From NCBI RefSeq assembly GCF_000151315.2, contig NW_011887299.1, positions 345,939 through 409,938 on the forward strand: a stretch of 64,000 nt of DNA, written 5' to 3'. Source of the stretch: Capsaspora owczarzaki ATCC 30864 (lineage: Eukaryota > Opisthokonta > Filasterea). A model generated the notes under the pieces. The model saw only the letters and a program-made list of their open reading frames with translations. It was not told the origin of the DNA and made no database searches. The position numbers were made by a program, and so were the translations under genes. This document shows, in pieces, positions 15,399 to 34,500 of this stretch; position 1 is the first letter of the stretch; the number at the start of each line of letters is the position of its first letter.

Positions 15399-16001
15399 AT
15401 GTCTCGTCCGACTGCCGGTCTGTTCGACCTTCGTGGCCAAATTGGCTTTTACGCCCAGTACCACCACAACACCTGGAACAAGCTCATCCACATTGTCTGC
15501 GTTCCGCTGCTGCTGTGGACACCCATGATCTGGCTCGCTCGCACTGGCGCGATTGCCGCCCTGCCCGCTGGCGTCCAGTCCTTTGCCGCCGGCTTTGGCC
15601 TCAACCCCGTCTTTGACGGCGCAATGGTGCTCGCCCTCTTCTACGGCACCTACTATGCCATCCTTGAGCCCGTTGCTGGAACTGTCGCCGCTGGTATCCT
15701 GCTCGCCGGCGCTTACTCTGCCACGTACGTCTCGTTCAACGTCGACAACGTCATCAATCTCTCGATTGGCCTCCATGTTGTCTGCTGGATTGCCCAGTTC
15801 ATTGGCCACGGTGTTGCCGAGAAGCGTGCGCCTGCTCTGTTCCAGTCCCTGTTCCAGTCGCTCGTCCTCGCTCCCTTGTTTGTTTGGCTCGAGGTCCTCT
15901 TCGCTTTCGGCTACCGCAAGAGCCTTGCCAAGGAGATCAACATTCAAGCCATCAAGGACATCAAGACCTTCCGCGATTCTCAAAAGAACAAGGGCAAGTA
16001 A
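15399..16001 (+). CDS. MPO1: Mpo1/DUF962 family Fe(II)-dependent 2-hydroxy fatty acid dioxygenase
   Basis: An intronless 200-residue membrane protein. Yeast Mpo1 is an ER dioxygenase that shortens 2-hydroxy fatty acids in phytosphingosine breakdown. The family's conserved His motifs are visible: YHHNTWNKLIHIV near residues 20-32, and the later HVVCW and GHGVAEKRAPAL segments. Several hydrophobic helices lie between them. The C-terminus is lysine-rich (QKNKGK). The start is preceded by an A-rich leader and the length agrees with the family. It is convergent with ORC1, with 186 bp between the stops. Confidence 0.92.
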   Translation: MSRPTAGLFDLRGQIGFYAQYHHNTWNKLIHIVCVPLLLWTPMIWLARTGAIAALPAGVQSFAAGFGLNPVFDGAMVLALFYGTYYAILEPVAGTVAAGILLAGAYSATYVSFNVDNVINLSIGLHVVCWIAQFIGHGVAEKRAPALFQSLFQSLVLAPLFVWLEVLFAFGYRKSLAKEINIQAIKDIKTFRDSQKNKGK

Positions 16002-16187: not shown

Positions 16188-18459
16188 CTAAACGGGCCCA
16201 ACAACTCGTTTCAATGTTGCGTCGTCACGAAGGGCAAACGTTACATCCGACTGGCTCACATTCAGCCGCACACGTTGGTACAAATCATTGGCGCCATTCT
16301 CGACCAACAGCAGCCGCGATGCGCCAAGGCGAGCACAGATGGCAGCGACCGCCGACGTCGACGGGGCTGGAATTCCACGGATGCGACAAATGCCGACATG
16401 TCTTGTGAATAGCTGTTGTTTGTTCCAGTTGAGCAGTTGGGAGGAGGGGGGGGGGGTTCGAGTAGCGTTAGAGTAGACCAAAAAGAACAGTCGAAAAACA
16501 GTCGAAAGTTGGTTTCCAACACATGAAATCGCGGTGCAAAACATCAAAAGTCCTCTTTGCAACCGAAAAAAAAAGCTCACCTTGCCAAAGGTCGCCTCCT
16601 CCAAGCCCGTGCGGCCAAATTCGGAAAGAATCGCGCAAAGGAAAGTACGCTCTTGCACGGACGCTGTCTGCATTGCCATAATGCTTGGAGAGGCAAAAAG
16701 CTCAGCAATGGCCGAGTCCACGCTCTCGATCGTCACGGAAAATCCATCAAGCTCGCTACTCTCAGTCTGAGCATCGCCGCCGTCCTGTGTAGCAGCTGTG
16801 CGTTTCGTGCGATGGGCAGCCTCGGCAATTTCCGTGGCTCGCCGGCAAATGTCCAGCGCGCGCCGAGCATCGCCAGAGACGGCGGCCACCTTGCGTGTGC
16901 ACAGTGTGAGAGCTGCAGCATCGAAGGCGTGGACAATGCCTTCCAGTCGCGACTGCACAATGAGCTCCAGCTGCTTGAAAGTGTATGGCTCAAAGGTCAG
17001 ACGCGTCGGGCCCATTCGACTTTGAATTCGATTGGACAGATGGCGCTCGGGCAAGTCCATCGTGTTGGCAATCGCCAGTGCAATAAGACGGGCTCCGCGA
17101 CGTGTAGGCCACTCGAACATGTTGTACAAGACAGACTGCTTCTTTGTCACGAGCAAATCGAGCTCATCTACAATCAAGACGATGCTCTTTTGCTTGGGCT
17201 GTGAACGCAAGGTCTGTGACTCACGCTTTCCGGCACGAGTTGCTGCACGACCGCCGCGAGAACTACTACGGCTTTGTTGTGCTCGGAGAGGGATTCGAGT
17301 GACGTGGCCATCCTCGTCTTCAACCAACTGGAAGGAATTAGAACTCGGATTGGTATTTCGCCCTCCACGGTTGCGCGCCTCGTCGCTGTCGTCGGCATCG
17401 CCGTCGTCCTCAGAGCTTTCGCCTTCGCTACTCGAGTTGTTGAAGAATTCGTCGCCGTCACCGGCACCGACAGACTCGGCTCGTGTTGCGGCGTTCACTT
17501 GCTCGCGGCGAAGGCCGACTTTGCTCGTTGTGCCTCGCCCTCGTCCCCTGCCGGCATGAGCGTCTGACAAGATTGATGCAGATGAAGATGCAGAAAAGCG
17601 CTTCTCGAGTAGCTGGGCGGCGTGGGCGGCAGTGACCTTTTGCCCTGTCAGATGCTTCCAGATGGTGGCATAGGCTTGTTGAGGATCGGTCAGCTTCATG
17701 CCATTGATTTCAATGCAAATAAAGTCGTCGAGGTTCCGGTCGTCCACTTCTTGCTGCAAGCTGCGAATCACAGCGTGCACGGTAGCAGTTTTGTCCGGTG
17801 CCTGGCACGCCCGAAATGTACATGCATCCCGAGCTCCCGTCGCGCAGCTTGGACTCGACAAACGCATGCAGCGTTGCAAATTCACTCTCCCGACAAGGCA
17901 GCGAGTCGGGCTCTGCTGAGACGTGCAGCCGCGCGCGTGCCAGCTCCAGCAGCTCTTCCAACGACGGACCAGCACCCGTCTCCGCCTGGCCAGTCGTCAG
18001 CGATGCCGATGATCCCGACAATCCCGACACCGATGCGCCAGGCGTCTTTGGTGCGACTATTGATCGCAGACGTGCATTTGGTTTTGGTGCAGCGACTGTT
18101 GCTGCAGCGCGAGCCGCCTTTGCGCGAATGGCTTCGAGCATTGCACGACGGCTGGGTTCGTCGTCGTCAACTTTGTCCGATTCGTCTTGTTCGTCTTGTT
18201 CGTCTTGTTCGTCTTGTTCGTCGTGTTCATCCTCGTTCTCAGAGTACTTGAAATCCTCGTCCTCGTTCTCGTTGTCGTCGTCGTCGTTGTTCTCGTCCTC
18301 GTCGTCCTGTGTGCGCTTTGAAACGGCGTGCTTTCGTCTCGATTCCCGCGCCTTGTCTTCGTCGTCGTCCACGTCCGAGTGGTGAGTGCGATCCAATGCA
18401 GCCGGCTCGGCCACCTCGTCGCTGCTCGATCGGCGAGCGCGCTTGGTCGCTCGTGGCAT
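16188..18459 (-). CDS. ORC1: Origin recognition complex subunit 1, with a one-base frame discontinuity at Walker A
   Basis: The largest ORC subunit, an AAA+ ATPase that loads MCM helicases at origins. Starting at 18459 ([12 protein letters not shown], basic and nuclear-like), it has a long acidic low-complexity N-terminus with DEQ repeats but no visible BAH domain. Then come Walker A (GVPGTG followed by [12 protein letters not shown]), the ORC1 hallmark [14 protein letters not shown], Walker B ([15 protein letters not shown]), sensor 1 ([17 protein letters not shown]) and the C-terminal winged-helix region. An intron spans about 16414-16580. Walker A is split between two frames by one extra base near 17792; the flanking frames are otherwise well conserved, so either this is a sequence error or the copy is damaged. 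An insert of about 120 acidic and Ser-rich residues separates Walker A from Walker B. It is divergent from DCTN5, with 232 bp between the starts. Confidence 0.93.
18180..18225. repeat. In-frame TTCGTCTTG tandem repeat in ORC1
   Basis: About five copies of a nine-base unit encode a repeated Asp-Glu-Gln tripeptide in the acidic N-terminal region of ORC1. Repeat-length changes would keep the frame. Confidence 0.8.
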
Positions 18460-20260: not shown

Positions 20261-23200
20261 TTAGTGGGAACGATCGCCTTGGTACAAGGGGTTCTCCGTC
20301 TCCTTGACCGAAGACTGGAAAAGGGGGTTGTTGTCCGACTTCCACTGGGAAGCTTGACGACCCTGCTCGAACTTTTGCCATTCGCGCTTGTCCATCAACA
20401 TGCCGTACAGCTTGTAGGCAAGCAGTGCAAGCAGACCCGCGGCAGCCAGGCCACCACCGACACCACCGGCGATACCAGCCTTGGCTTCGTCAGACAGACC
20501 AGAGGTGGGGCACGTTCCGTTCGCGTACTTGGCATAGCACTCGGCAATGGCAGCAGACTTGGCCATGCAGAGGTTGTTGTCATCGCACCAAACGCAGCCA
20601 GGGTTGGACCTGCGCGAGCAGGCGTCGCAGTTGGTCGCAGCGCCGCAAGGGTCGGGGTCGGGTCGGTTGCACAAACGGCCAGTGTAGCCAGCCTCGCAAA
20701 TGCAGACGCCGTTGCAAGTGTCGCACGTGCCATGGTTGGAGCAAGTTTGGTTTTGGAGGTTGACGGGGCAGGTGACGCCAATCTTGCAGCTGCAGCCGGT
20801 TTCGGGGGTGCCATAGCCAGGTTTGCACTTGCACTTGCAGCCGTCGCATTCGCCGTTGGGGTAGTTGCACTGCTGGCCGCCGACCTTGATGCAGCCGGAA
20901 GTTGGGCAAGAGCAGTCGCTGCCAGTGTACAGCGGCGTGCCAGTCAGCGGATCACGGTTGCACAAGCAGATGCCGCACTGAGTGGCAGACGACTGCAGGC
21001 ACGTGCCTTGGCCAGAGCAGGGAAGCACAACGCCAGAGGTGGAGTTGCCAGTCGGGCACGGGTGAGCAACAGTATCGCAGTCGCACGCAGGTCCAGTCTT
21101 GCCAGGCGGGCAAGTGCAGATACCGCAGATTGGGTCGCAATCACCGCCATTGCAGCGAACGCCGCCAACAGAGGGGCAGACACCCTTGACGCAGCCGCAA
21201 GCAGGGCCGGCGTGCAAAGCATCGCAGACGCATTGGCCGCAGATGCACGTGCCAAAGCCGCTGCACTCCAGTCCATTTGTACCAACAGGGCAAGTGTTAC
21301 TCGAGCACTTGCAGTCAACGCCGCTCCAGCCCGAATCGCACTGGCAGACACCGCAGTTGCACGTGCCGTGTCCGTTGCAGTTACCGGGGCAACGAGTCGA
21401 GCAGTTGCACGCAGGACCAGTCCAGCCACCCTTGCAAACGCAAGTCTTGTCGCATGTGCAGGCCGAGGCGTGACTCAGCGGGTCCGTTCCAATACCACCG
21501 CACTCGACGTTGTTTTGGTCGCGAGGGCAAGAAGCCGTGCTGCACGAGCAGTTGGTGGCCGGGTCCCAGCCAGTGGCGCACTGGCACTGGCCGCACACGC
21601 ACTGACCACGAGGAGGGTTGCAGTCCGTGTTGGCACATTGCGAGCTGCAGTCACACTTGGGGCCAGACCATCCAATATTGCAGCGGCAAGTAGCAATGCA
21701 CGAGCCAGAGGTGGATGCCTCCGTGCAAACGCCGTGACCGGAGCACGAGTTCAGGGAGGCGCAGGTAACAGTTGCACTGGCAGCGCACTCGCAGGCAGTG
21801 CCGTTGTAGCCAGCGTTGCATTGGCACTGGCCGCAGACGCAGGTGCCTTGGCCGTTGCAACGAACGCCGTTGAAAGTGGGGCACGAGTCGATACACTCGC
21901 AACTAGCGCCAGTGAAGCCAGCATTGCATTGGCAAGCACCACACACGCACGTTCCGCGGCCAGAGCAGGCGTTGGGGCAAGTGCCGGCAGGATTGTTGCA
22001 GGAGCAGGTGGGACCCGACCAGCCCGGCGCGCAATTGCAGCGTCCGCACTCGCAGCTCGCAGTGCCAGGTGAGGAGCAGGCACCGGGGCAGGTGCCAACG
22101 GGGCAGTTGCAAGTCGAAGGAACCAGCGTGATTCTTGATTCGCCCAAGCCCAAAAAGACCACGCGAACGTCAGCAGCAGCAATGTTGTAGCCAATGGACA
22201 GCTCATCGTCCTCCAGAACAAGCGTAAAGGTGCGAGAATCGCCGCGGCTCAGACCAGTATAGCCTGCAGCGGGAGTAAGCGAGCGAACAAACTTGTCCAT
22301 GCCATTGTCAAACAGCTGCGGCTTGATTGTTCCCACAATCTGGTTGTAAACGCTTTCAATGACGCTCAACACGTTGCTCGAGTCGCCAGAAAGCCCAGCA
22401 CGGCCTCCGAAGCCAAGGGCGTTGATGAAGGAATCGTAATGATCATTGTTGGAAGAGTACGCGGTGATGGCCAAAATGGGAACCACATTCTTGTCCAGGA
22501 AGGCAGCCTTGATTTGAGGCCAGCTGGGAATCTCGTGGTCAAGCGTGGCTGCGTTGATCGTGTTTGCGAAATTGCTAGAGCTGGATGCGGTGCCGGGGGT
22601 AACGTGGCACTTTTGAAGTGCGCGACGCTGCGGGAAAGCGGTGGCAGAACTGAGGCGGTTGGAGTCAAACTCCATGTGTCCAGTAGCATCGGTGGCAAGC
22701 AGCAGAATGTGACGGCGGGCGGGGTTCCAGTTCACGCAAAGCAACGATTGCAGCATCGAGCTGTACTGAGACTCGGGGAAATCGTTACCCCATTCAGTGG
22801 CAGCGTTGCCAAGAGCCGTGCTGAAAGCGCCGAACGAGCCAAAACTGCGATCGTCACCGGATGCAATTCCCTCGATACGGAACTCGTAATCACCACTGCC
22901 ACCGAAAGGACCGTTTGGCCTGTCAACGTGCGAGCCCAACCTCCAGTAATGGCAATCTGACGAGATACTGCTGCTGCCTCTGCAGAGTGATTGCATTTTG
23001 TCCCTCAAATTGTTGCCCAGATTCTTGACGTTCCTCAAATCGTCACCCATCGAGCCAGACAGATCGAACAGGTAAAAGAATTCGACTTCCTTGCGCTGCG
23101 GGATGGTGACGACAATGCTCACAGTTTGGGGGACGCCTGCGAGATGGGGGAATGGAGTGACAATTTCGAGTGAGTCAGACATGGGCGAGGAAAAGAGTTA

Positions 23201-24058
23201 TGTTGAGAAGGTTGGACACAAACCAAAAAAAAACGGAAAAAAAGGAACAACAGAAAAAGAAAAAAAGACAAAGCAGGGAAAAAAAGAGGCGGATCTCTCA
23301 ATGCAATGTGCAGTTTCAGAAGGATCGAGAGATGATGAAGAAGAAGAAACATTGAAGGAACGAGAAAGGAACGAAAAGGAAAGAGAAAAAAAAAAAAAAA
23401 AAAAGGGAAAAAATGAAAGGAGGTTTTTTTTTTTTTTTCCTTCCTTTTTTTTTCGATTTTTGATTAATTCCTTTTTTTTTTTTCTTTTTTTCGTTGCTTT
23501 TTTTTTCAACTTTTGCTGTGCTTGCATTGTGTGGATGGGAGACATCTGCACTGCGCCACGAGGACAGTCGATGACGACGCCACGCCAGTCAACTCTACCG
23601 CACGCGTGATGGGAGCACCGCTACACCAACAACAACAACAACAACCCTGACAAACACGCTGCGGTTTTTGCTTTTTTTGCGCTCTGTTTTTTGTTGTTCT
23701 TTTTTCTTTCTTTTTTTTTTCTTTTTTTTCCATGTTTTTTATGTGTTCTGCTTGATTACTGACCTTTGCGGAGCTCGACGACAGCCGTGGTGGGACGGAT
23801 TTCGACAACGCCATCGGCGTTGGCAACATTGGTGGTCGAACGGATGTTGGACGTGGGGTTGAGGACGCCGGCAGGATTCGGGCAGAGCAGAGCGTTGTCA
23901 GACGGGCTTCGGCAAGTACCGTCCGCGACGCACCACGAGCAGCCGTAGATGGAGTCTCCGGTGATACACTCGTTGCAAGTGAGAATGTCAGTGCATGCTT
24001 GGCCATACGCGGAGCTTGCCAGCGCCAGAAGCAGCAGCAAAGCAGCGAAAAGCTTCAT
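20261..24058 (-). CDS. ITGB: Integrin beta subunit with expanded EGF stalk
   Basis: A type I membrane receptor chain pairing with integrin alpha. Two exons (24058-23764 and 23136-20261) sum to 3171 nt, giving 1056 residues. The signal peptide is MKLFAALLLLLALASSAYG, followed by a PSI domain (about 21-60). The hybrid/beta-I region has the MIDAS loop DLSGSMGDD: D123, S125, S127 and ADMIDAS D130, D131, at almost the same residue numbers as human beta3. The beta-I C-terminal helix motif LSGDSSNVLSVIESVY is also conserved. About twelve Cys-rich I-EGF-like modules follow (four in animals), then a membrane-proximal Cys module (CDACSRRSNPGCVWCDDNN) resembling a second PSI domain. The transmembrane helix is about residues 985-1005. 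The tail has DKREWQKFE, NPLF (1035-1038) and NPLY (1047-1050), the talin and kindlin/PTB-type docking motifs. It is head-to-head with integrin alpha. Confidence 0.97.
23137..23763 (-). other. Integrin beta intron 1 (627 bp)
   Basis: The GTCAGT donor follows the codons for VVELRK, and the CAG acceptor precedes GVPQTVSIVV, restoring a typical integrin beta hinge between PSI/hybrid and beta-I. The intron is dominated by A and T homopolymers on the + strand (23220-23510). No coding exon is seen in it. Confidence 0.85.
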
Positions 24059-24421
24059 TTTGGAAAAAGGGAAAAAAAAAAAAAAAAAAGCCAAAGGGGA
24101 AAAATAAAAAAAAAGGAAAAAAAAATGAACAAAAAAAAAAAGGAATGAAAATCGAAAAGGAAGAAAATAATCGAAAAAAAAAATCCACGTTCTTGAATTG
24201 GTAAGTGATCGAACGAAATGATCTGAAGCGGGAAAAGAGGAAAAAACGCGCCCCGCTCAAAGTTACCGGATAAAGCGAAAGGTCCTCAATTCCATACTAG
24301 AAAAAAAGGCTCGAGAAAGTCGACCGGGGGGGGGGGAAAAAAAAAAACACAAGGGTTTCGGCAACGGTGCTGTTAATTTTTTTGGGGTGGCTTGTTGGCG
24401 GTGGCGCAACTGGCCTTGGTG

Positions 24422-24452
<31 letters not shown>

Positions 24453-24565
24453 GGGGGAACGATGAGCCAACAACCGCTTTTTTTGTTCGACGGTTTTGTT
24501 GTGGACCCTTTGCGGAATGCATGACTCCCTCGCTGCAAGGCACTGCAAGGCTCGTTGGGATCGAC

Positions 24566-24585
24566 CCGCCGACGTGGATCGGCGG
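24566..24585. repeat. Inverted repeat (hairpin) 1 in integrin promoter region
   Basis: CCGCCGA and TCGGCGG are perfect reverse complements separated by six bases. This is a compact GC-rich stem. Confidence 0.85.
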
Positions 24586-24679
24586 TGTGTAAGAGAGGCA
24601 CGCGTCTGGATTGCCCCGGCGGAAGAGTGGCTGGCCGACCCGCATGGCGAGAAAGAGCGAACCTGTGTGGAACCGCGCA

Positions 24680-24697
24680 CCTGCCGAATGCGGCAGG
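24680..24697. repeat. Inverted repeat (hairpin) 2 in integrin promoter region
   Basis: CCTGCCG and CGGCAGG are perfect reverse complements around a four-base loop (AATG). A T tract of about 41 bases begins nine bases later. Confidence 0.85.
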
Positions 24698-24703
24698 GGG
24701 TTC

Positions 24704-24705
<2 letters not shown>

Positions 24706-24746
<41 letters not shown>
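24706..24746. repeat. Poly(T) homopolymer tract
   Basis: About 41 uninterrupted T residues directly after the second inverted repeat, midway between the integrin genes. Confidence 0.9.
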
Positions 24747-25162
24747 CTGCGGAACCTTTTTCTTTTATTTTGGCAAGGTGTTGAAAGGTTTTTTTGAGTT
24801 TTTGTTGAATAGATCATTTGGAGCGAGATCAAAACAAAACCAGACCTGCAGCGATCTAGATCGCAACCACTATTTGCATGGGTTGCTCATGGCGCGATGA
24901 GAAAAGGAGCGCAGCTGTCGGGTATTGCAGATCGAGTCGGATTGAATTTTTGATTTTTTTTTTGGCGACGGTGGTTACTCATTGCAATTTTGCGATTCAG
25001 CAAATTGGATAAGGAAAGGTAGCTTTTTTTTTTTTTTTTTTGGGAAAACTGAAAAAGAACAAAAATCATTCTTCTTCCTTTTTCTATCTTTTTTTTTTTT
25101 TTTTTCTGCCCCCTTTTTTTCTGCTTTTTTTTTCCATCCTCTTTTCTTCGCACTTTGCATCA

Positions 25163-28100
25163 ATGCTTGCTTTCAAGTCATTGGCGTGTGTGCTCCTTCT
25201 TTGCTCCTGGTTGAGCTGCAGCGGTATGGTTGACTCACGCTCTCCCGCAATCGTCTCCCAAAGAAAAACACGCAAAACAAAAAGAAAAAAAAACGTAAAA
25301 CAAAAACGGTAGCAAAAAGAGAGGTTTTTGACCCGCTCGTTGTACACCACCGCGAGCACAGGACGGCGAGCGTGTCGGACGCTCTTTGCGGCTCATCGTG
25401 CACCTGCCTCACGGTGCAGCATCCGCCCCCCCCCCCCCCCAGTGCACCGTGAATGCGGATTTTTCGACTTTTTTTTTTTTTGTTCGATTCTTTTTTTGTT
25501 CCTTTCTTTTTTTTTTTTTTTCTTTTTTTTTTTTTTTGACCTTGTCCTTCGGCTTGACTCTCGTCGTATCAGCGAGATCGCTTCACCTACGTGTTTCAGA
25601 GATACTTTGACACTGCTCATGACTTGTGCGCCGATCATGCGTCTTCGTGAGAATGAATGAGGCAACCTCCAAAGAAAAAAAAGACACACAAAAAAAAAAA
25701 AAAAAAAAAAAAAAAGGGAAAGGAAAAAAAAAAGAAGAAAACTCGCAACCGCAATGTCTCTATGCTCGTCAACTCGAGTGAGGGTGTACTTCTCATGGTT
25801 TATGAGGTCGTACACGGGGAGGGGAGGGGGTTGCCTTCGATCCCTGGCACAGTCTCCACTGTCTTTTCTGGCAAGCTTTCAGTCCAGCAGCCACAAACTC
25901 TAGCCACAAAAAAAAAAAAAAAAAAGCTTCTTTCAATCTTTCATATTTCTTTCCATCATTCTTTTCACCGTGCTTTCCCTCCATCAGCTTCCCTTCCCCC
26001 TCTTGTTTTTTGAACCCCGGCTCCTTCAACATTGTCATTGTCTTGCAATTTCAACTAACTTTTTTTTTTCTATTGTTTTTTTTCTATTGTTTTTTTTTTT
26101 GTTTTTTGGCTTCGCTCTCAGCCCTCGCCGGACCCATCTCCGCCGACCTCTCCGACCATGGTGTGCTCTTCCGTGGTGAGCCGACGAGCGACTGCGCTTC
26201 GTGGTCTGTTTTGATGCAGCTCAAGCATGGCGGCGCCAAGCCTGCGACTATGCCCAGCGTTGTGCGCGCAAACGACACTGGCGCCTTGGAGCGCCATTTC
26301 GGCGACTATGCCGTCGAGCGCCTGCATGTCGGCGAGAATGGTGCCGAACACACCATCACGCTCAACCGCGGACCGAGCTCGCCGTTTGCAGTCGAGTTTT
26401 CGCTGTCCCACGACGGCATTGCCTCTGCTCTGATTTCGGACGTTGACGGCGCGCTCGAGTTTACCACGGTCGGTGGCTGCACCTTCCGCTACGAGAAGCT
26501 TGAGGTTATTGATGCCACCGGCCGCAAGCTCGCAGCTCGCATGTCGTGCACCCCCTCTGCCACCTCTCCCGAGGTTGGCATTGTGTCGCGCGTGTCGTCG
26601 GGCCCCTGCGCTGTCTCGGTCGGCGGTGCCCCGCTGCCCTTCTCCCTCGACATTCTCGAAGCTGGCGTCTACCCCATCCTCATTGACCCCTTCGTGGCAG
26701 ACAACTACCCGATCGGCGCCATGACCACGCAGCTCTTCTCGCAAAATGGCGATAGTGTTAACGATTATTTTGGCGCGCAAATTGGCTCTGGCAACTTTTG
26801 GTCCAGCTCGAACGCCTACGCCGACTTGGTCGTTTCTGCACCTGGCTATTCAAGCAAACGAGGCACCATTTATGGGTACAAGGCGACTGGATCTTCGCTG
26901 GTCTACACCTCCACGCTGGCCTCTGGCTCCTGCGTGAGTAACGGCAACAGCTACGGCTTCCGCTTCCACGTCGGCCGCGCTCCCGGTGCTTCCTTCGACA
27001 CTGTCTTTTCTGGTACCCAGTTCTGTTCATCTTTGACCGCCTTCCAAGGCTCCGCGACCGGCCCGTCACGAACAATCTCTTCCACCAGCGTCAACTGCAA
27101 CTCTTACGCCATCGGCCAGTATCCCATCTGTGGTGTCATGACCTACTATGGCGAACCGAACGGCGGATCTGGCACCCTGTATGTGTCGTCGTCGTCAAGC
27201 TGGTCCTCAGTCTCGTCATACTCATCGAGCAGCCTTCTTGGCTCTGGCTCGAATGGCCGCAAACCGGGCCTCCATGTCTACACGGACTACCAGGTGCCAT
27301 CCGACTTCTTTTTTGCAGACCCTGCAGCAGACACCCCGAGCGGAGGTTACCTTGGCCGCGTTGTTGGTGTTTCGTCGACCGGTTCGCGCTTCTGGGCCGC
27401 CGACGGTCCCAACGGTGACTCTGGCTTTGGCCGTGCAATCATTCTTGCTGATGTGGACGGCAACGGAGCTCGCGATCTCATTATTGGTGTCCCGCACATG
27501 AACAGCCCCACCCGCACGGACTGCGGTGGCTTCCGTGTCTACCTGAATGTTGGTGGCTCTGCCAAGTACCAGACCTCGCCGGCGTTCACTGCGTATGGTG
27601 AACAAGACGCCGAGGAGTGCGGCAGCTCGCTCTCCAACGTCGGTGACTTGAACCGTGACGGTTTCCAGGATGTTGTGATGGGATGCCCCTACTACTCTTT
27701 CACTGCCGCCCTCTTCAACGAAGGTCGCATCTTTTTGTTCAACGGCAAGTCGGGTGGCGCGATGGTTGTCGGCCAGATTCTGCGCTCGAATGTCGCCGGC
27801 TCCTTGTTTGGCTACGCTCTGTCCACCACCGGCCGCGATCACAACAGCGATGCCTACGCTGATCTTGCCGTCGGCATGCCCGGAACCAACCAATACACTG
27901 GTCGTGCCGTTATTCTTGCTGCCGTTGGTAACAGCGATATTACCATCACCCTTTCCAGCAACCGCGGCTCCACGGGACCCGTGACTGTTGACACGTCGGT
28001 GGCCACCTTCACTGTCACGGCGACCATTAGCAACGCCGGTCCTGAAGCGACGTTGAACGGCATGGCTCTCGTCTGGTCCACCCCGACCGGCTTTGCCCTC

Positions 28101-31100
28101 TCCTCTGCCACTATTTCCCCCTCTTTGACCGTTACTGGCAACACGATTAGTCTCCCTGCCATTGCGGACGATGCGTCGTACAGTGTCACACTTTCTTACA
28201 CGCTCTTGCAGACTGTGCAGTACCCGAATGTCGCCACCTTCTCGGCCAGCATCGCCAAGAACCCCCCGCGCATTCTGACGAACGAAGCCGCCTCGCTCTC
28301 GTTCAAGTTTGTCAGCCAAGTCACAATCAGCTTTATCACCCCTCCCAAGGCGTTCCAAGAGGTCACCACCGCGCCCTACACGACTCCCTCTTGCACGACC
28401 GGTTCGTGCCAGATTGTCAAGGGCAAGCAGGCCGTTCTGCGCAACTTTGGCTTCCGAAACACCGGCACTGGCACGGCGTTCGGCAACCAGCTGACCATTA
28501 CCTCGCCAGCGGGTGTCGTGTTCAACTACATTCGCAAGATTTCCGATCAGTCTGCGGCCAATCTTGCCACTCTCGGCTGGTCTTGCTCGTCCACTGGCTC
28601 TGGCACAACCACCAAGTGTGTCTTCCCCAACCTTGTTGCGGCTGCCAACACTGACACTAACAGCAACACAAACCAGTATGAGCTCGTCTTCTCCACTGCC
28701 GGCCTGGCGACGGGCGGCAGCTGGGCTTTCCAGATCCAGCACGTGTTGGGAACCACACCGACCACGTCGACCTCGTCGAACAACTTGGTTGTCCCCGCGG
28801 CCCAGTGCGATCTTGCAGTCGTTCCCTCTGCCACTTACCTTGCTGGCGGCAGCTGCTGCGGTGGCGCTTCAACCGAGATTTGTGTCGGGGCGACCTCCCG
28901 CGTGACCTTCTATGTGACCAACCAAGGCCTCTACTCTTCTGCTGCCACGTCCTATGTCACTGTCGCTGTGCCCGCCTCGTTGGCCGTCTCTGCCGCTGAC
29001 TCGTACATTACTTCGTCGTACAACATTGGTGCGACCACCATTTCCAGCTCTGGCGCTTGCACTCTTTCTGCTGGTACTTTGCGATGCAATGTCCCTGGCG
29101 ATCCTGCCGGTGTGGTCAATCCCGATGGCCTTGTTGCCGTCACGGTGACGATGAACCCGGTCGCGACTGAGACTGCCACGTCGGCCTCCATGTCGGTGAC
29201 TGCCGTTGCCGGTGCCACGGTTACTGACACGAACCTCACAAACAATGTCTTGCCAAGCTTCTCGGTCCAGCTCTGCAAGTCGAGCATCCTCACTGCCGAT
29301 GTCTCTGTTGTTTCCTCGCAAGATCTGCCTGACTTGAACGGCGTCACTGGCTTTTACTCGACCTCTGTGGTGGAGCTGTCTGTCAACGTCAAGAACAATG
29401 GCCCTGCCGTCTATGTGGCCGGCTCAAAGTCGTTCACGTTCACTTATGACAGCGCTCTGACGGTGACTGCTGCTTTGTCGGCAAATCCCGGTCTGACGTG
29501 CTCTGGCAGCGGAGCTGTCGTCACCTGCGTCTTGAACAACGCCATGGCTGTCGGTGCCCAACTATCCTTCTCGACGAGGATCAAGCTGACCTCCCCTTCG
29601 GCAAGCGCCGTCGGACCCTCCTACCAGTATCTTGCTACCTCGACCGTCCAGCTCGTCGGTGGTTCCAGCACGGATTCTGCTGCCGTCAACTTTGTCGACT
29701 ATGTCAACCCCACCGTGTTCATGGCGGTCTCTCCCTCTACAATTGGCCCCGACGGCAACATTGTGACGGCCACTGTGAGCGTGACCAACCCCGGTGTTTC
29801 GAGTGATGCTACCAATGTTCGTCTCGTTGTTTCCCTTCCCTACGCCATCGGTACCCTCACTGCGAGCAATATCGCCCTCGCCGCGCCCTCGGCTTCCGGT
29901 TTGATCAACTCGCTGAACTGCGCCATCACCCCCATTCCCACTTTCACGGATTTCCAGTCGTACACTTCGTGGATTGTGAACTGCACCATTCCCACAATCA
30001 CTCCGTTGACCGCCGGCTGCGACTCCAACCTTCAGACCCAGCGCTGCCGCTACGAGCTCAGCATCACCGCTCCCACCGTCGCCTCTGCTTCGTTGCTTGC
30101 CAGCGCGTACAAGGACAACACTGTTTGGCCATTTGCTGCCGACATCTATTCCCCCAAGCCGGATGACTTTTCGGACAACTCGGACTCTGATGTTCTCAAC
30201 ATGGCCACCACGCCTCAACTCGCCGTTACTCTGGCTGCCCCCAGCTTGGCGTCCCTCACCGACAACCCCAAGATTGCCAATGGCGACACCATCCAATTCC
30301 AAGCACACATGACCAACTTTGGCACGGCGTCCACGAGTGCCACTATTACAATCGAGGTTAGCGGCTCTGGCTCAGGAACGCTCGTCACTCCTACGGCGTC
30401 CTTGACCTGTAGCTCGACGAGTTCCCCTGATGCCTACACTTACACGTGCACCCGCAACGCTTTTACAAAGGACAGCACCCAGACCATCTCGTTTGGTGTT
30501 CACGCCGGCTCGCCGAATGGCCAGATCCTCGTGAAGGCTACTGTCACTTCCTCGGTGGCCGAGCTCCCGACCGACACGGCAGACAACACTGTTGCAGTCC
30601 TCTTGACCAACGAGATTCCCGGTGTGGATTTGGCTCTTGACGTCTTTGTTGATAGCACGCGCATTTCTGGCACTGGCACGACCGTCTTCAATGTTGCCGT
30701 TTCCAACATCAACGGTCCTTCCCCCGCCAAGAATGTGACTGTGGTTTGCCCCCGCTTCTGGACGAACGCTACACAGTTCTCTTCCATCGAGATGGTGGAC
30801 GACTTTGGTGGCGACGTGTCCTTCACCACCACCACCCCTGCTGGTGGCTTCACGACTCTCACGTTCAACATCAAGACTCCGATCGCCCCGTTGAGCACGG
30901 CCCTTGTCTGGCGTGTTCCGTTCTCGTTCTCGGTCAAGACCCTCAAGCTCCCCGGTGCTCGCCCCATCACCTTTGACTTTGAGACCTCGGACAAACTCCT
31001 CGATACCACCGAGGTTCGCACTGCCTCTGTCACGCTGTACTACACCCCTGTGGCTGCGTCTGCGTCGAGCGAAGACAGCTCGTCCATCATTGGTGCCATT

Positions 31101-31226
31101 GTCGGCTCCATCCTCGGTGTTATCGTCATCGCTCTCATTGCCTGGAAGCTTGGCTTCTTTGACCGCAAGGCGAAGCCGCCGGCACTTGATGGCAGTGGCA
31201 ACCCGAAGACTGCGGATGATGATTAA
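25163..31226 (+). CDS. ITGA: Integrin alpha subunit with FG-GAP propeller and long repeat ectodomain
   Basis: The type I membrane partner of integrin beta. Exon 1 (25163-25223) encodes the signal peptide MLAFKSLACVLLLCSWLSC; exon 2 (26122-31226) encodes the rest. Together they give 5166 nt and 1721 residues, in frame. The N-terminal half holds FG-GAP beta-propeller repeats with cation loops DVDGNGARD (D464), DLNRDGFQD (D529) and DHNSDAYAD (about 593), each followed by a hydrophobic strand such as LIIGVP. No inserted I domain is seen. The propeller is followed by about 1000 residues of repeated beta-sandwich modules (DUF11/CARDB-like, rich in S, T, V) in place of thigh and calf domains. The transmembrane helix is about residues 1674-1694. 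It is followed by KLGFFDRK (1696-1703), the alpha-tail motif (animal KxGFFKR) that clasps the beta tail. The protein is far longer than the roughly 1000-residue animal chains. Confidence 0.96.
25224..26121 (+). other. Integrin alpha intron 1 (898 bp)
   Basis: It separates the signal-peptide exon from the ectodomain exon. The donor is after AGC G and the acceptor is CTCTCAG at 26121, joining to give SCSALAGPISADLS. It is rich in C, A and T homopolymers (25427-25440 C run; 25690-25715 A run; 25515-25537 T). No missed exon is evident, but regulatory sequence is possible given the size. Confidence 0.8.
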
Positions 31227-31564: not shown

Positions 31565-34500
31565 TCAACTGCGTGTCGTCGTAGTCGTCATCGTCGTCGA
31601 ACCCGCCAATGAAGAAGAGGAAGAGCTTGTCGTGGTTGTCGGGGCCACCACACCAGGTGGGGAAGAAGCAGAGGACGCCGACACGGATGCAGATCCAATT
31701 GCAGAAGCCACAGACATGGGGTGGCTCTCAATCTCAAAGGCCTGTGTCACAGTTCCAACGGCTTTGGTACGTCCTTCTCGGAAGACGAGTCGCGCACCGA
31801 TGCGAACAAACTCTGGGTGCTTCAGAAAGCGCAGCCGAACGCGAGCTTTATCGCCTGTCCGGAGCAGTTCGCGATCCATCGAAAGAATAGACGCGGTCTG
31901 ACGAATGCTACCGCAATGGACCATGGCTTGGTACCGCGTGCTGATCGTGGTGGGGTGGTGGAGAATGAGCAACTCTGCCTCAAACTCTCGGTAGGCCTTG
32001 AGGTGTGCATCCTTGGCGAGGAGCACCATGCCCTTGCGGATGGCCGAGCGCTTAATCTTTTTGAGAGCAAAGGATGCAGCCTGCCCGGCTCTCACATCTC
32101 GAACAGGCAGACGTTTCCGCTGAATCGTCTTGAGCTGCACCGGCTGGAAGTTGCCCAATGTATCCGGGCCCAAGTACAGCGTATCGGTGCTTCGGATGAC
32201 ACCCGCCATGACGGTGCCGGAGATGACTGTTCCGACACCCTTGGCGTGGCAACAGAACGCGAGCAACCAAACACACACACACACACACAAAAAAAAGGGG
32301 GGGTGAGCCGGAAACGAAGGCAATATCGCAGAGCCAGGGAGAGTCAAACACTCACTGGAACAGAGTAGGTCTCGTCAATCTGGAACTGAGCTGGCAGCGT
32401 TGGATCAAATTCACGGCGTGGGGAAATCAGATTGAGGAACATTTTGAGAAGGTCCAACACTCACTGGAACAGAGTAGGTCTCGTCAATCTGGAACTGAGC
32501 TGGCAGCGTTGGATCAAATTCACGGCGTGGGGAAATCAGATTGAGGAACATTTTGAGAAGGTCCAAATTCTCGCCGGTAACGTTGGAGATTTGGAAAATG
32601 GGGCACACCCTACCAAAAGGAAAAAGAAGTCAAGCGGAATTGAACCGGGAACTGCTCATTATTGTGAAAAAAAGTTTGCCTTACCGCTCAGACATAAAGT
32701 TGGTCGCCGTCACGACCACATCGTCCTTGTTGGCGACGACAAGTGGGATTTTTCTGCACCCAGGAGACTTGAGAATCTTGACGAGCAGATTCATCGTTTC
32801 CTTGAGCACATTTGGCGGGCACATGTCAATTTTGGTCACAACGACAATGACTGGCACGTTCAGAGCGAGGGCAAGTCCCAGATGTTCTGGAGAAGGGGAA
32901 AAACAAACGAGGAGAACGGAACCAAGACGGCGAAAATTGAGCACGCGAGTCATTCAGGCCCAACACGACGCTTCATGCATGCATGCCTCCAACGAATACC
33001 TTTGCTCATCCCGATAAGACCAGCATTGGCACCAACCTGCAGCGGTGGGGACAAAAGGGGAACAGAATTTCTGGTAAGTCGCCAGTCAGACAAGTTTCAG
33101 CTGTTTCGGCTATAGATCCGCTTACCATCAGCATGGCAAAGTCGGGGACATGGCCCGTCAAGCCAAAAACAGTTGTTTTAAGGTAGCGCTCGTGGCCCGC
33201 GAGATCAATAAAAGTCAACACTTTGGAGGCGCGCTCGCAGATCAACGTCCAGTCCAAGCCGCCAGTGTGCTCGTCCGGGGCGTTGACAATGCGGCCTTGC
33301 GAGTCGAAGCCAAGAATGTTGTGCGAAATGCTGCTCGTGCGCCCAGTGTCAGCCTCGTGCTTGTGCCTGAAGAGACGCAGACGGCTTTTGCCTCGGCCAT
33401 TGTCCAGCTCGCCGTGGGTGAGGACGCCAAGCAGGGTGCTCTTGCCGGCGTCGACGTTGCCAACGACGGCAACACGCACCTCGATAAAATCACTCTCGTC
33501 GTCCATGCGTCGGCGCACGAGGTATTCTGCCACAGTGCCCGCGTCCGCTTGTTTCTCGCGCAGCAACGAGATATCCGCCTTGCACTCGATGGCCAGTTGT
33601 CGCAATGTTGCAACAGACTGATCGAGTTGTTCTTGCGTGAGCCCGCTTGAGCCCCCGTCTGTATTCCAGCGACCGAACAAACCCCACGAAATAGACGACA
33701 TTAAAACAGCAAAAATAAATCACAAACAAGGAGGGGGGGAGGGAAGAGAGGTGACGTGTCGGCACAATTGAATCACAGCAAAGGGTGCGGCGGTGATGCA
33801 ACGTTGTCCGGAAATTTCGCATCACCAAGCCCTCACCTGCCACTCCAACCTCATAGATTGTTTCGCCCTGCGACTCTTGGAGCCGGGCGCGCAGTTGGCG
33901 CAGCAAGAAGGCGGTATCCTCAGCGTCGGGGTTGACCAATTGCAACTGTGGGCGTTCAACCAAATAGTGAGTTTTACACGACACACACACGAAACAAAGA
34001 CCCTTCTTGGGAGGGGTTTTATTCGTTTTCCTTTTGGTATCGCATTTCCAAACCCTCGCCGCCCTTATTCAAGCCATCCAGCGTGGTCGTGGAGTTTGGC
34101 GATCGCGCTCACCTTGGGATCGAGCAACAGCGTCGCGTCGTCTGTCGTGTCCACTTCTTGACGAGCCTTGTCCCGTGGAGCAGCGTCCTTGAGATCAATG
34201 GCATCACCATTGTCATCGCTTTCAGTGTGCTCGTCATCGTCATGGTCATCATCCTTGTCAGCGGCATCGTCGTCCTCGTCGTCATCTTGGCGGCGGCGGG
34301 CTTTCTCAGCAGCTGAGCTTGACGACGCTGCTGCGTTGTTGCTTGTTGACGCGCCGAGCTCCTGCTTTGGCCGCTGCTGTTGCTTTTGCTGTTGCTTTTG
34401 CTTTTGCGGTTGCTTCTGCTTTGGCTGCTGCTGCTGCGCTGTGGTGGTTGTTGCAGTCACTCGCGGTCCTTTGCCCTTGCTCGTCACCGATGGCTGCTGC

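Follow-up and report, generated by a model that had tools for sequence, protein, structure and literature searches.

Integrin genes on either side of a shared spacer

The window analyzed here is a 64,000-nucleotide stretch of the genome of Capsaspora owczarzaki (C8:345939-409938 of a 27.46-Mb, 29-contig assembly), in which positions 20261 to 31226 hold an integrin beta gene (B8) and an integrin alpha gene (A8) arranged head to head. Integrins, which attach animal cells to the matrix, are older than the animals themselves. Throughout, C2, C3, C6, and C8 denote contigs as well as the gene pairs found on them, and positions without a contig prefix are those of the window. An earlier note on this DNA had proposed a divergent integrin beta/alpha pair with a shared 1.1-kb region, both genes being complete from signal peptide to diagnostic tail. 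Pfam families and gene models agree with the coordinates and orientation it gave, the start codons enclose 1,104 bp, and each gene model has a signal-peptide exon at one end and a characteristic tail at the other (KLGFFDRK in A8, NPLF/NPLY in B8). The unicellular holozoan host that the note had suspected is supported by this analysis and by Grau-Bove et al (2017; PMC5560861). Exon models were obtained with a home-made splice model and manual edits, without RNA support, and all feature coordinates were re-translated.

B8 (20261..24058, minus strand) encodes 1056 aa from start codon to stop in two exons (24058-23764 and 23136-20261) joined by a GT-AG intron. Exon 1 (23764..24058) contributes the hydrophobic leader of a signal peptide and a cysteine-rich, PSI-like region whose cysteine pattern was recognized by inspection only; among the paralogs, the Pfam PSI family matched B3 and gave no match in B6. 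The modelled start lies at 24058, and the ATG at 23182, which opens the long minus-strand frame (20261-23182), is predicted by the gene model to be intron read-through and not the start of B8. Pfam families matched by this frame are Integrin_beta VWA (PF00362; E 1.1e-22), EGF_2 in seven stretches, and PF08725, the cytoplasmic domain of integrin beta chains (E 3e-17). Accordingly annotated, exon 2 (20261..23136) comprises, all on the minus strand, the VWA/beta-I domain (22331..23089, matched in two pieces, C8:368269-368766 and 368917-369027), a leg of cysteine-rich EGF repeats (20474..22111; 546 aa with 105 cysteines), a transmembrane segment placed by hydropathy (20417..20473), and the PF08725 tail with NPLF and NPLY (20282..20413). 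The DLSGS motif within the VWA domain (23051-23065), together with PE and TDA, aligns to human beta-6; we take these residues to form the metal site (metal ion-dependent adhesion site, MIDAS).

A8 (25163..31226, plus strand) encodes 1721 aa from start codon to stop in exons 25163-25223 and 26122-31226. Its 61-nt first exon (25163..25223) carries the signal peptide; the intron behind it is in phase 1 and 898 bp long. Downstream of an N-terminal region (26124..26765) discussed below, the frame ending at 31226 matches FG-GAP repeats (E 8.2e-13) and DUF11, each in three Pfam stretches. The best solved-structure match of A8 is human integrin alpha-5 (E 4.7e-15), whose chain residues 272-456 align to an FG-GAP part at 27387..27926. 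In integrin alphas, the FG-GAP propeller has seven blades, and the leg has Ig-like thigh and calf domains. The A8 leg, measured between the last FG-GAP motif and the membrane span (27837..31085; 1083 aa), contains DUF11 repeats, which are presumably Ig-like. It is followed by a transmembrane segment and a short tail with its stop codon (31086..31226), in which the C-terminal motif KLGFFDRK contains GFFDRK, a variant of the GFFKR motif that follows the membrane span in integrin alpha tails. No animal Integrin_A_Ig model matched A8 at E up to 1, a range in which HMMER drops most matches above about 0.1, and the alpha paralog A3 showed a sub-threshold match to PF20806 (E 0.028). An iterated profile intended for counting Ig domains in the alpha legs returned only its seed.

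In overall design, the pair thus resembles animal integrins such as alpha-5/beta-1 and alpha-V/beta-3: it shares with them the FG-GAP repeats, a beta-I domain with MIDAS, an EGF-rich beta leg, single membrane spans, a GFF-type alpha tail, and an NPxY/F beta tail. Unlike in animal integrins, the alpha leg matches DUF11 and not the animal Ig models, A8 and A3 carry the extra N-terminal region, and both legs of the C2, C3, and C8 pairs are about twice as long as those of C6.

Four head-to-head pairs in the genome

The arrangement recurs outside the window. Searching the assembly for the beta VWA family gave six matches, corresponding to four genes, one each at C2, C3, C6, and C8. Protein search placed alpha genes at C3, C6, and C8, and the 12 matches of an FG-GAP genome search comprised the alphas at all four loci plus one other gene. 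Every beta gene found (4/4) has a head-to-head alpha gene, the betas lying on the minus strand and the alphas on the plus strand throughout, and the start codons are separated by 1368 bp at C2 (1380 with the next ATG), 1164 bp at C3, 356 bp at C6, and 1104 bp at C8. Calculated from the spacer lengths and the size of the genome, the probability of such a match is on the order of 1e-17 if four alphas and four betas had been placed independently. The obvious reading is that the four pairs descend from one pair. Recurrence on four contigs rules out an assembly artefact, and the opposite strands and introns rule out a bacterial-style operon. A candidate fifth alpha at C6:1575640-1576930 was set aside: its two frames have Pfam hits to FG-GAP families and a sub-threshold hit to PliI, and we assume this gene to be GPI-phospholipase-D-like.

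The head-to-head integrin arrangement in Capsaspora was already published in 2017. Grau-Bove et al (2017) list four pairs of this kind in Capsaspora and a single one in Corallochytrium limacisporum, regard the arrangement as conserved and probably of holozoan origin, and report that the pairs are co-expressed. Those Capsaspora pairs agree with ours in gene families, orientation, and number (four), and no difference in arrangement is seen; the Corallochytrium pair has the same arrangement but belongs to another lineage and is the only one there. The pair that the earlier note had singled out is therefore real, yet neither new nor singular. Its suggestion of an ancestral linkage tied to co-expression agrees with the four pairs found here and with the probable holozoan origin and the co-expression published for such pairs, whereas the two outcomes it had weighed against that suggestion, uncorrelated expression and an adjacency unique to this assembly, do not hold in view of the same published co-expression and the Corallochytrium pair. 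Earlier literature on the subject includes Sebe-Pedros et al (2013; PMC3870316), and De Mendoza et al (2015; PMC4739763) tie two Capsaspora co-regulation submodules to specific alpha and beta paralogs. Among the literature titles listed, none further concerned the head-to-head arrangement beyond these known reports, although other papers may mention it.

Legs, tails, and added domains

Leg lengths vary in parallel in the two chains. The alpha legs, counted from the last FG-GAP motif up to the membrane, measure 982, 1219, 489, and 1083 aa at C2, C3, C6, and C8, respectively; the beta legs, counted up to the membrane from their first cysteine, measure 535, 581, 265, and 546 aa. The lengths rank identically in alphas and betas, and among all 24 permutations the true pairing correlates best (r 0.984). 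It is still the best of 24 (r 0.993) when 130 aa are subtracted for the PA14 insert of A3.

The tails single out one pair. GFF-type motifs occur in the alphas A8 and A3 (KLGFFDRK) and A2 (KRGFFARK), and the tails of B2, B3, and B8 carry NPLF and NPLY. The C6 pair (C6:352488-361380) alone has neither the alpha GFF motif nor the beta NPxY/F motifs: A6 extends into a 463-aa cytoplasmic tail without GFF, and B6 shows NELY and a basic extension. In keeping with this, a search with the beta cytoplasmic-domain family matched at C2, C3, and C8 and gave no match at C6 at E up to 1. Baade (2019; PMC6450878) reports that human talin is recruited by the tails of two Capsaspora betas, less well by one of them once its NPXF motif is mutated. 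Both NPXY/F motifs are described there as highly conserved in the aligned Capsaspora betas, of which the accessible text names two without saying whether the C6 beta is among them.

Alignment to human beta chains revealed variation in the MIDAS. B8 and B2 keep DxSxS, the glutamate, and the aspartate, whereas B3 has DVSAT and an asparagine in place of the glutamate, and B6 has DASSG with asparagines in place of both the glutamate and the aspartate. B3 (C3:16158-17231) also carries a SUEL lectin domain ahead of its PSI region, and its neighbor A3 (C3:19239-24583) contains FN2 and PA14 domains; in A2, there is a weak, sub-threshold match to hemopexin. Judging from these sequence features, ligand binding in the C3 pair may have shifted from the MIDAS to the added domains.

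A further addition is found upstream of the propeller. In A8 and A3, the signal peptide is separated from the propeller by about 200 aa that can be aligned with each other and match no Pfam or NCBIfam family. BLASTP with the A8 region found the A3 N-terminus over 82 aa (E 2.6e-6) but had no hit in the initial part of A2 or A6. When prokaryotic genomes were scanned with two short patterns drawn from the A8/A3 alignment, 143 pattern matches resulted, two of which encode relatives; patterns this short may miss others. The region is partly common to A8, A3, and bacterial proteins (window 26124-26765; L027, about 1242-1880; L035; L036). One relative is an FG-GAP protein from a Wenzhouxiangellaceae metagenome-assembled genome (L035), which matches query residues 23-586 and thus resembles A8 in both the N-terminal region and the FG-GAP repeats, but has 14 FG-GAP stretches. 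The other, from an Armatimonadetes metagenome-assembled genome (L036), matches query residues 45-197 and shares the N-terminal region, but shows no FG-GAP by Pfam in a frame that runs off its contig. Compared singly with these two bacterial proteins, the N-terminal region alone gives E values of 3e-7 and 7e-9.

Among the literature titles listed, none dealt with the inserted domains, the altered MIDAS, or the lost tail motifs, apart from the NPXY/F conservation treated by Baade (2019). What the present analysis may add is the exon-level anatomy, the agreement of leg lengths and the tail differences seen in individual pairs, the MIDAS alterations, the domain insertions, and the bacterial-type region of A8 and A3. 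That the two chains of a pair change in concert may be the part that extends published knowledge, if it is not already in print.

Descent, regulation, and partner choice

We consider it probable that B8 and A8 form an old, duplicated, and co-expressed pair, one of four, whose neighboring products are the natural partners of a single receptor. Under this interpretation, a single ancestral pair that probably predates the filastereans would have been copied as a unit, and the two genes of each pair would be expressed together, as Grau-Bove et al (2017) report. The neighboring products would be preferred partners in one heterodimeric adhesion receptor, B8 dimerizing with A8, in which the beta-I domain would sit on the alpha propeller above legs of matched length. 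At the membrane, the beta NPxY/F motifs would be available to talin-type proteins beside the alpha GFF motif, and the spacer would act as one shared regulatory region that balances the amounts of the two subunits. The natural-partner reading is suggested by the matching leg lengths, by the change of both tails in C6, and by the recruitment of talin to beta tails (Baade, 2019).

Several results weigh against this interpretation. The leg-length signal is driven mostly by the outlier pair C6, and the next-best pairing comes close (r 0.976 versus 0.984, or 0.991 versus 0.993 after subtraction of the insert). Four-taxon likelihood trees, built on 1072 ungapped columns for the alphas and 678 for the betas, rejected no topology, the divergence in both families being too great for a test of co-duplication; the alpha and beta distance matrices correlate with r 0.79, the true pairing ranking third of 24. 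Finally, the spacers show no excess of shared words over shuffled sequence. With homopolymers masked, 6- to 8-mers present in all four spacers or in the three long ones stayed below the expectation from 100 dinucleotide shuffles, except for one 8-mer. This word, CAAAACAA, observed once against 0.48 expected, was not taken as a shared promoter signal.

The same absence of a spacer motif common to the pairs, along with spacer lengths that range from 356 to 1368 bp, would suit a passive relic, that is, an ancestral pair copied by segmental duplication and kept in a compact, slowly rearranging genome, with neither a shared promoter nor exclusive pairing. The slow-evolving gene order that Grau-Bove et al (2017) attribute to Capsaspora fits this explanation as well, which we nonetheless judge unlikely. 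The pairs are strongly diverged, with identities between loci over ungapped columns of 16-32% for the alphas and 30-40% for the betas, and this divergence implies that linkage persisted over a long time. Around the pairs, in contrast, linkage has not been kept, as the flanking genes differ between loci. The flank scan covered nine frames, at C3 on the alpha side; seven frames have Pfam matches, which differ between loci, and the two without are at C6. The matches comprise 2-oxoglutarate dehydrogenase-type and DOT1-like genes at C2, a MyTH4/PH gene at C3, and, at C8, Mpo1-like (15399-15998), Cdc6/ORC-like ATPase (16191-17975), and EF-Tu-type GTPase (31568-33701) genes. A large segmental duplication was rejected on the basis of these nine frames, and the published co-expression of the pairs likewise speaks against a mere relic.

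Base composition bears on whether adjacency entails joint control. The C8 spacer (24059..25162; 1104 bp, 41% GC), which presumably holds both promoters, has long A runs near the beta gene and T runs towards the alpha gene; those of C2 and C3 are similarly A-rich beside beta and T-rich beside alpha, with mixed sequence between, and that of C6 lacks such polarity. For bidirectional pairs, the criterion is a distance of about 1 kb or less between start sites, and the 1,104 bp given here is measured between start codons. The polarity at C8 suggests that each start is preceded by a T-rich tract and, as at C2 and C3, would be compatible with two separate back-to-back core promoters under independent control, so that adjacency would bring no regulatory coupling. 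Given the co-expression of the neighbors reported by Grau-Bove et al (2017), we find this arrangement rather unlikely.

Joint expression would still leave partner choice free if every alpha could combine with every beta whose size suits it. Animal integrin biology offers a precedent, as vertebrate beta-1 pairs with many alphas, and the legs of C2, C3, and C8 are similar enough that size does not exclude cross-pairing among these three. The C6 pair, however, differs from the others in leg length and in both tails, which argues against exchange with C6, and we doubt that pairing is free across the set. A reading that goes further in the opposite direction treats each neighbor pair as a closed unit, that is, one evolving receptor whose legs, tails, and added domains change together, and whose linkage keeps the co-adapted partners associated; the extra N-terminal region of A8 and A3 would then indicate a history shared with bacterial FG-GAP adhesins. 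It draws on C3, with its SUEL, PA14, and FN2 domains and altered MIDAS, and on C6, with its altered MIDAS and replaced tails, and we put it forward tentatively, as somewhat less than an even prospect.

A conserved and co-expressed alpha/beta pair offers a simple answer to the problem of balancing an obligate dimer in a unicellular ancestor. Capsaspora is transfectable and editable (PMC9170242), and this tractability makes both the idea of one receptor per pair and the effect of breaking the linkage directly testable.

Some minor observations concern the C3 locus and the assembly. The C3 pair (C3:11444-25039) lies less than 26 kb from the end of a 2.5-Mb contig and is possibly subtelomeric, and the 330-bp intron between the tail halves of its beta gene (C3:11520-11849) holds a long TG repeat. 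The coYki locus may be missing from the assembly or hidden in it, as three published primers and a 90-base arm were unmatched; two published GAPDH qPCR primers (PMC9170242) do match exactly, facing each other about 530 bp apart, as does an actin-terminator 22-mer in two places.

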